A DNA stretch of 48,145 bases. Source: Thermodesulfovibrionia bacterium (GTDB lineage: Bacteria; Nitrospirota; Thermodesulfovibrionia; UBA6902). The notes beneath the pieces were generated by a model, which was not told the DNA's origin, did no database searches, and saw only the letters and a list, made by a program, of their open reading frames with translations. The first letter of the stretch is position 1, and every line of letters begins with the position of its first letter. Of the stretch, positions 18,777 to 19,868 are shown piece by piece. The translations under genes were made by a program, and so were the position numbers. Where the stretch lies: positions 1-48,145 of the forward strand of contig CALZGI010000056.1 in assembly GCA_945786855.1 (NCBI GenBank), in the 5' to 3' direction.

Positions 18777-19217
18777 TCAGTGTTTCATTTTTCGGGGCAT
18801 GTTCTTAAGAGTGCAGCTGAATGACACCTTCACAGGCTCATCATTCACATTGTCCCACATCAGGCAGTAGAACTCCTGATCTTCCGTAAAGAAGTCGTGC
18901 CCTGCAGGGTCTATCATGCCCTTGCCCATCATCACTCCTTTTTTCTGAACCGGATATTTGACTTCATCCTCAGCATGGTAGTGGATGTTAAAATTGACAA
19001 AGTCGGAGGAATCAAAATCATAATCAAAGACCATCCCGGGCTTCAACTCGATACACTCTTCATATGATCTGCCGGGTTTTATGATAAATCTGTCATGAAC
19101 AACTTCCCCACCGGCTTCTTTTTTCAGCACATTTGATGTTTTGTCCGCAGAAGTGGAACAACCGCTGATAGCGACAATGACTAACAAATAAAGAAACATA
19201 ATTTTCAAAGGTTTCAT
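18777..19217 (-). CDS. Lipoprotein of unknown function
   Basis: A 146-aa lipoprotein: a hydrophobic signal with lipobox AISGC (Cys20), then a Ser/Thr/Lys linker and a compact beta-rich domain. The segment GRSYEECIELKPGMVFDYDFDSSDFVNFNIHYH..VKYPVQKKGV contains clustered Asp, His and Glu that could bind a metal, and a Phe/Tyr-rich CLMWDNVNDEPVKVSFSCTL near the end resembles emp24/GOLD-like or carbohydrate-binding sandwiches. I do not recognise a named family. GGAGGG lies a few bases before ATG. It is monocistronic as far as seen; the next gene downstream on the strand is the DUF2156 gene 284 bases away. Confidence 0.65.
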   Translation of the reverse strand: MKPLKIMFLYLLVIVAISGCSTSADKTSNVLKKEAGGEVVHDRFIIKPGRSYEECIELKPGMVFDYDFDSSDFVNFNIHYHAEDEVKYPVQKKGVMMGKGMIDPAGHDFFTEDQEFYCLMWDNVNDEPVKVSFSCTLKNMPRKMKH

Positions 19218-19442: not shown

Positions 19443-19796
19443 TTATGCAGTTGTACCCCTCCCCTTTTCCAGCTCTGCAATAAAATCTTTTGCATCCTTG
19501 AACCCTACGGAACGATGAATTTCATCACCCTGGGCGTTCAGAATAATATGTGTCGGCGTAGCAGTTATACCGAAACGGTGAAACTGTTCCGCGTCCCTTC
19601 CTGACTCGTACTGAAGGGGAACATAGTTCTGATTAATATAGCTTTGAACATCAGCATTAAGAAACGTACCTGTTTCCATTCTTTTGCAGGGGCCTCACAA
19701 TGGGCTGAAAAAGTCAATTATCAGGAACTTCTCCTGCTCTTTTGCGGCAGCAAGAGCCTTGCTGAGTTGATTCATCCATTGAATATTTTCTGTCAA
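19443..19796 (-). CDS. Thioredoxin-like selenoprotein (UGPC motif, TGA = Sec34)
   Basis: Read from TTG at 19794-19796 with AAGGAGG six bases upstream, the frame gives 117 codons with a single internal TGA (19695-19697, codon 34). Around it the protein is LIIDFFSPL-U-GPCKRMETGTF, matching the thioredoxin active site DFWAPWCGPCK. So TGA replaces the first catalytic Cys while Cys37 remains. After it come YVPLQYESGRDAEQFHRFGITATPTHIILNAQG, with the cis-Pro loop TPT, so the fold is complete with no other disruption. An 18-base hairpin with loop AGGUAC follows the TGA at the expected SECIS distance. The protein has no signal peptide and should be a cytoplasmic thiol/selenol oxidoreductase. It needs SelA, SelB, SelC and SelD, none of which are in this window. 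If Sec were not inserted, the downstream ATG would leave a useless 78-aa piece. A sense mutation or sequencing error (TGT/TGC to TGA) is the alternative. Confidence 0.8.
19660..19677 (-). promoter_or_regulatory. Candidate bacterial SECIS hairpin
   Basis: On the transcript, bases 18-35 after the UGA form GGAAAC-AGGUAC-GUUUCU: a 6-bp stem including one terminal G-U wobble, and a six-base loop. The second loop base is G, and GGU sits in the loop as in the E. coli fdhF SECIS (AGGU). Position and size fall in the usual range for bacterial SECIS elements. Confidence 0.6.
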
Positions 19797-19836
19797 AGGG
19801 TGTCCTCCTTTCCGGCGCGGCATTCTTCCGTCCTAC

Positions 19837-19868
19837 ATCAATTTTAACCTAATTGATCAGTAAGTCAA
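19837..19868 (-). promoter_or_regulatory. Promoter with overlapping palindrome for the selenoprotein gene
   Basis: On the minus strand TTGACT (19863-19868) and TAAAAT (19841-19846) are separated by 16 bases, about 40 bases before the TTG start. A perfect inverted repeat ATCAATT (19837-19843) / AATTGAT (19851-19857) covers the -10 box and so could be a repressor operator. ATCAA..TTGAT half-sites resemble those of ArsR-type regulators; that is only a resemblance. Confidence 0.5.

Follow-up and report, generated by a model that had tools for sequence, protein, structure and literature searches.

Selenoproteins that carry selenocysteine (Sec) in the first position of a UxxC redox motif have been catalogued in the Pfam families PF13098 and PF00085, the PF13098 entry (WP_011366075.1) under the name 'thiol:disulfide interchange protein' (PMC13188914). 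The protein described here belongs to this class, UxxC thioredoxin-like selenoproteins, which the first-pass annotation of the locus had rightly regarded as known; the new part is a Nitrospirota subfamily that lacks an NCBIfam selenoprotein model. The gene lies in a 48,145-nt stretch of DNA, hereafter the window, a contig (C56) of a Nitrospirota metagenome-assembled genome (G000) with an assembly of 3.52 Mb in 346 contigs. Its predicted product shares with the PF13098 selenoproteins the Pfam family (45.3 bits against a cut-off of 27), the UxxC motif with Sec in the first position and the occurrence of Sec/Cys pairs, but is set apart from them by description as a short, stand-alone and cytosolic-looking protein of Nitrospirota. 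The gamma domain of DsbD provides the best fold matches and the best domain-level match among the NCBIfam models. The window protein nevertheless has neither a transmembrane nor an N-terminal domain, scores 49.9 bits against the DsbD cut-off of 330 and has the first Cys replaced by Sec; of the full-length DsbD architecture (periplasmic alpha, membrane beta and gamma) it displays the gamma-like part only. The DsbD-like C-terminal region of TsoB, a rhodanese/DsbD fusion-like selenoprotein (NF045694), is likewise matched at 46.1 bits, far below the cut-off of 805, and the window protein has no rhodanese domain and one Sec, not two. With the classical Sec-thioredoxins (PF00085, UxxC) it has in common the fold, the UGPC motif and the cis-Pro loop, yet it scores higher with Thioredoxin_7 and Thioredoxin_2 (45 bits) than with PF00085 (34.5 bits), and its 40 bits with the canonical thioredoxin model TIGR01068 stay below the equivalog cut-off of 96.8. 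None of the NCBIfam selenoprotein models matches the window protein over its cut-off, and our literature search found no useful account of a Nitrospirota selenoproteome.

The sole interruption of the 117-codon thioredoxin-fold open reading frame on the minus strand is an in-frame TGA (Table 1). Sequence comparison makes it very probable that the frame encodes a selenocysteine-containing thioredoxin-like protein and that the TGA is read as Sec. The first-pass annotation had placed this codon correctly, at the first Cys of the thioredoxin motif, and had described an otherwise uninterrupted frame of 117 codons with a TTG start and a ribosome-binding site; both descriptions hold, and the strand, which it left unsaid, is added here. 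Homologues begin with M-x-x-x-I-x-W, aligned with the TTG of the window, and this start is therefore preferred over an in-frame ATG at 19823. Under the standard code the only open reading frame is a 78-aa one from the ATG at 19679, exactly the piece that ordinary annotation had been expected to report. Wholesale reassignment of TGA in this genome was considered and rejected: TGA is the commonest ordinary stop, terminating 14 of the 30 long open reading frames of the window, and the Sec codon aligns with Cys.

Table 1. Features of the selenoprotein locus, in positions of the window.
Feature	Positions	Strand	Details
CDS, 117-aa thioredoxin-like selenoprotein (predicted)	19443..19796	(-)	TTG start 19796-19794, Sec = residue 34, TAA 19445-19443
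TGA, predicted selenocysteine codon, first position of UGPC redox motif	19695..19697	(-)	TGA in 16 related genomes, Cys in sister clade
Shine-Dalgarno-like AAGGAGG, 7 nt before TTG	19804..19810	(-)	read from sequence
Sigma-70-like promoter match TTGACT-16-TAAAAT	19841..19868	(-)	consensus match 10/12; weak evidence
Putative bacterial SECIS hairpin	19659..19678	(-)	5 Watson-Crick pairs and one G-U, 6-nt apical loop AGGUAC
Downstream gene, 146-aa protein, lipoprotein-like N-terminus, no Pfam family	18777..19217	(-)	homologues beside the thioredoxin-like gene in several relatives

The read-through protein matches the Pfam families Thioredoxin_7 (45.4 bits, E 9e-12), Thioredoxin_2 (PF13098, 45.3 bits) and Thioredoxin (34.5 bits), and all three matches span the TGA and exceed the curated cut-offs. 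Together with the redox motif U34-G-P-C37 and the cis-Pro loop TPT of the predicted product, they give it the profile match and motifs of a thioredoxin-fold oxidoreductase. An AlphaFold model (pLDDT 89.6) finds its best matches among solved structures in DsbD-gamma, with TM of about 0.72-0.79; when solved structures were searched by profile, a putative disulphide isomerase of Bacteroides (2kuc) and DsbD-gamma came up. Inspection of the 117-aa protein by eye reveals neither a signal peptide nor a membrane segment, and the most likely role is therefore that of a cytosolic thiol:disulfide (selenenylsulfide) oxidoreductase. In the proposed sequence of events, the ribosome would start at the TTG (19796), SelB on the hairpin (19678-19659) would deliver Sec-tRNA-Sec at the UGA (19697), and translation would then run on to the TAA (19443). 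Sec34 of the product would probably attack a substrate disulfide, with Cys37 resolving the mixed intermediate. The catalytic direction, the electron donor, the physiological substrate and the actual incorporation of Sec are what we infer.

Clear homologues, 42-53% identical, were found in 16 of the 60 relatives searched, each with exactly one internal stop, which is always TGA and always directly precedes the xxC of the redox motif. Such a pattern excludes chance as the origin of the TGA. In one more genome (G023) the residue in the TGA column is Cys, and a scan of named genomes—Nitrospirae, Nitrospiria and Thermodesulfovibrionia bacteria—added more Cys homologues (L099, L101-L105). An initial contig scan with a single protein had returned no matches, and the search succeeded once the query was an alignment restricted to the region downstream of U. 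Every row of the resulting alignment has either Sec or Cys in the TGA column, and all rows share the second Cys of the motif. When the motif columns are left out of tree building, a single branch with support of 99/97 divides the Sec forms from the Cys forms; six Cys rows are on this tree, and a seventh Cys sequence, known from the search of 60 relatives, lies off it. The Cys homologues that the first-pass annotation had named as supporting evidence thus exist, and they form a separate clade. Among 198 genomes sampled phylum-wide, no more than 16 contain a homologue at E 1e-10, so that the Sec subfamily of short proteins is clustered close to the bacterial family to which the window belongs.

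The alignment bears directly on two other accounts of the frame. A nonsense mutation or a sequencing error in a Cys-type thioredoxin gene would make the locus a pseudogene or an artefact, and a fresh pseudogene would indeed show a single in-frame stop. We reject this account as extremely improbable, since homologues in 16 other genomes, each assembled separately, also have TGA at this codon, and the SECIS-like hairpin is conserved. In close homologue pairs dN lies well below dS on either side of the TGA, which indicates that translation of the two halves yields a single protein; random decay elsewhere in the gene, named at the outset as a sign against a selenoprotein, is contradicted by purifying selection on both halves in the relatives. 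The functional product might instead be the 78-aa piece, with the upstream part not translated with it, as a standard gene finder would list it. That product would be missing the catalytic U34 as well as the fold's first strand, and its ATG sits at the base of the SECIS stem. The 25 codons upstream show family-wide conservation and, in close relatives, purifying selection, so that there is hardly any likelihood left for this account.

The putative SECIS hairpin overlaps the METGTF codons, with the T of the ATG as its first nucleotide, and its loop starts 23 nt after the UGA. The published bSECIS model calls for a spacing of 16-37 nt, a loop of 3-9 nt with G in one of the first two positions and a stem of 4-16 bp (PMC13188914). 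The window hairpin conforms to the model in loop and spacing, with 23 nt, a 6-nt loop, G in the second position and a 6-bp stem counting the G-U pair. Most family members have the consensus hairpin UGGAAAC-AGGUAC-GUUUCCA, the 3' side of which reads GUUUCUU in the window. The copy in the window is thus at the weak end of the family, with one G-U and a broken basal pair. Against a bSECIS criterion of -7.5 kcal/mol or lower for minimum free energy, the hairpin alone reaches -4.6 kcal/mol (z -1.9), a 45-nt stretch folds at -6.6 kcal/mol with another structure winning, and a 60-nt fold contains the stem at -9.7. An Rfam search of the window gave no matches. The check for a SECIS element proposed by the first-pass annotation therefore turns up a SECIS-like hairpin at the right distance that is conserved in the family and weak in this copy.

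The codons under the hairpin display restricted synonymous variation in the Sec forms. At positions +8 to +11 after the TGA they are frozen as ACA (14 of 15), GGT (13 of 14), ACG (14 of 14) and TTT (all 16), against ordinary synonymous variation in most other columns. The Cys forms read M(K/N)(K/Q)CT in this stretch, and the hairpin is gone. Covariation within the 117-aa family alone is uninformative, as the pairs hardly vary. A paralogous selenoprotein family of about 195 aa, recovered in the homologue search of the 60 relatives, has the hairpin UGGAUGC-AGUUAC-GUAUCC(A/N) at the same spacing. With the two families pooled, 95% of the cells pair, and in 8 of the 24 sequences one pair has both bases exchanged, from A-U to U-A, a two-sided cell count and a covariation score that none of 500 shuffles reached; the eight cells represent one inherited difference between the two families and count as one event. 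On balance, these observations favour the view that METGTF is held largely by the RNA (SECIS), not by the enzyme, in a Nitrospirota-centred subfamily that has no dedicated model, and that the sister family keeps the hairpin with a compensatory change.

The paralogous family comprises proteins of about 190-205 aa with the motif FYNPGUIGCQQMDAVTYP and occurs in several Nitrospirota families (L034-L041, matches at about 1501-1840). Its members have a TPR-like (repeat-like) tail with weak matches to the YbgF and BamD models, and none of the NCBIfam models matches the family over its cut-off.

The genome's own capacity for Sec decoding was only partly recovered. Of the four genes selA, selB, selC and selD, a search for which had been proposed, selA (616 bits) and selB (360 bits) are adjacent to each other on contig C194, both over the cut-offs and without stops. 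SelB shares 56-78% identity with the SelB of most family members over the parts compared, and the G+C content of C194 is close to that of the window (44.6% and 45.6%); both argue against contamination as the source of selAB, in an assembly with 6.8% contamination in which the position of these genes on another contig leaves their origin from the same organism without proof. In this assembly selC was not found by the Rfam model, by blastn or by a lineage-specific covariance model, which returned only tRNAs for Ser, Leu and Trp. An HMM search for selD likewise gave only a weak 66-bit match, as in all compared genomes. Both selC and selD are present in most of the relatives tested.

A strain that has lost Sec decoding, and with it selC and selD, would leave the gene as an orphaned member of a real selenoprotein family, and the two negative searches are what one would then expect. 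This outcome is very unlikely, though less so than a pseudogene. Not only are selA and selB intact, but three FdhA proteins with VUHAP (863-879 bits) and four proteins of the AhpC/TSA family, encoded in the same genome, each keep one TGA, at a canonical Sec position, in an otherwise open frame; the AhpC/TSA group is made up of three peroxiredoxin-like proteins, which have TxxU motifs, and a thiol-disulfide protein, which has WUPWC. Moreover, contig C194 breaks off among dispersed repeats 438 nt downstream of selB; in one relative (L124) selC is on the strand of selB and begins 82 nt downstream of it. With selB and seven other clear selenoprotein genes present, and with C194 ending near the site of selC in some relatives, the absence of selC is best read as an assembly gap; selD has no such positional argument. 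A genome without selB and selC had been put forward as grounds for refuting a selenoprotein, and the outcome is divided: selB is there, alongside the seven other selenoprotein genes, and selC was not seen.

The seven additional genes (L128-L130, L136, L137, L139, L141) are likely selenoprotein genes of this metagenome-assembled genome and indicate a sizeable selenoproteome. The repeats that flank selB are AT-rich and dispersed (AAATTTCAAATTCCAAATGCC-like, in both orientations; L001:1-440 and 2295-2459 of G000:C194), and are the likely cause of the contig break near selAB.

The neighbourhood of the thioredoxin-like gene includes the lipoprotein-like gene of Table 1, an LPG_synthase_C gene, a DUF362 ferredoxin, a flagellar stator pair and a rubrerythrin, and is syntenic in relatives. 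The gene order in L090 matches that of the window: the thioredoxin-like gene is followed by a lipoprotein-like gene, an LPG_synthase_C-like and a DUF362-like gene, two reading frames of the size of the stator pair, a rubrerythrin-like gene and a gene for a conserved protein of 146-163 aa. The locus is therefore most simply regarded as vertically inherited. The lipoprotein-like family is found near the thioredoxin-like gene in L090, L091 and L094. The neighbours in the window and in the relatives give no clear functional link that would define an operon, nor is any redox partner gene consistently adjacent to the thioredoxin-like gene in them. The novelty that the first-pass annotation had sought in the operon is accordingly not borne out: the gene has syntenic neighbours but no informative operon.

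Standard pipelines would truncate this gene, and the reading set out here puts its annotation right, for a Nitrospirota lineage with a sizeable and little-described selenoproteome. Within the family, Sec forms that have a SECIS can be set against Cys forms that lack one, a natural contrast which could be used in training bSECIS models and bears on how an RNA signal within a coding sequence constrains the protein sequence.

Two unusual tRNA loci were observed among the relatives. One (L071:73-167, minus strand, G040:C32) is a 95-nt tRNA that ARAGORN reads as tRNA-Cys (GCA) and that exceeds the tRNA-Sec gathering score (56.7 bits). It lies about 1.3 kb from a second copy of selD with an in-frame TGA, in a genome that has a normal tRNA-Sec elsewhere, and is possibly a Sec-like tRNA for Cys. 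The other (L081:1501-1543, minus strand, G001:C48) consists of the first 43 nt of a tRNA-Sec, as far as the anticodon stem, beyond which the contig runs on with unrelated sequence, and looks like a broken or interrupted selC.
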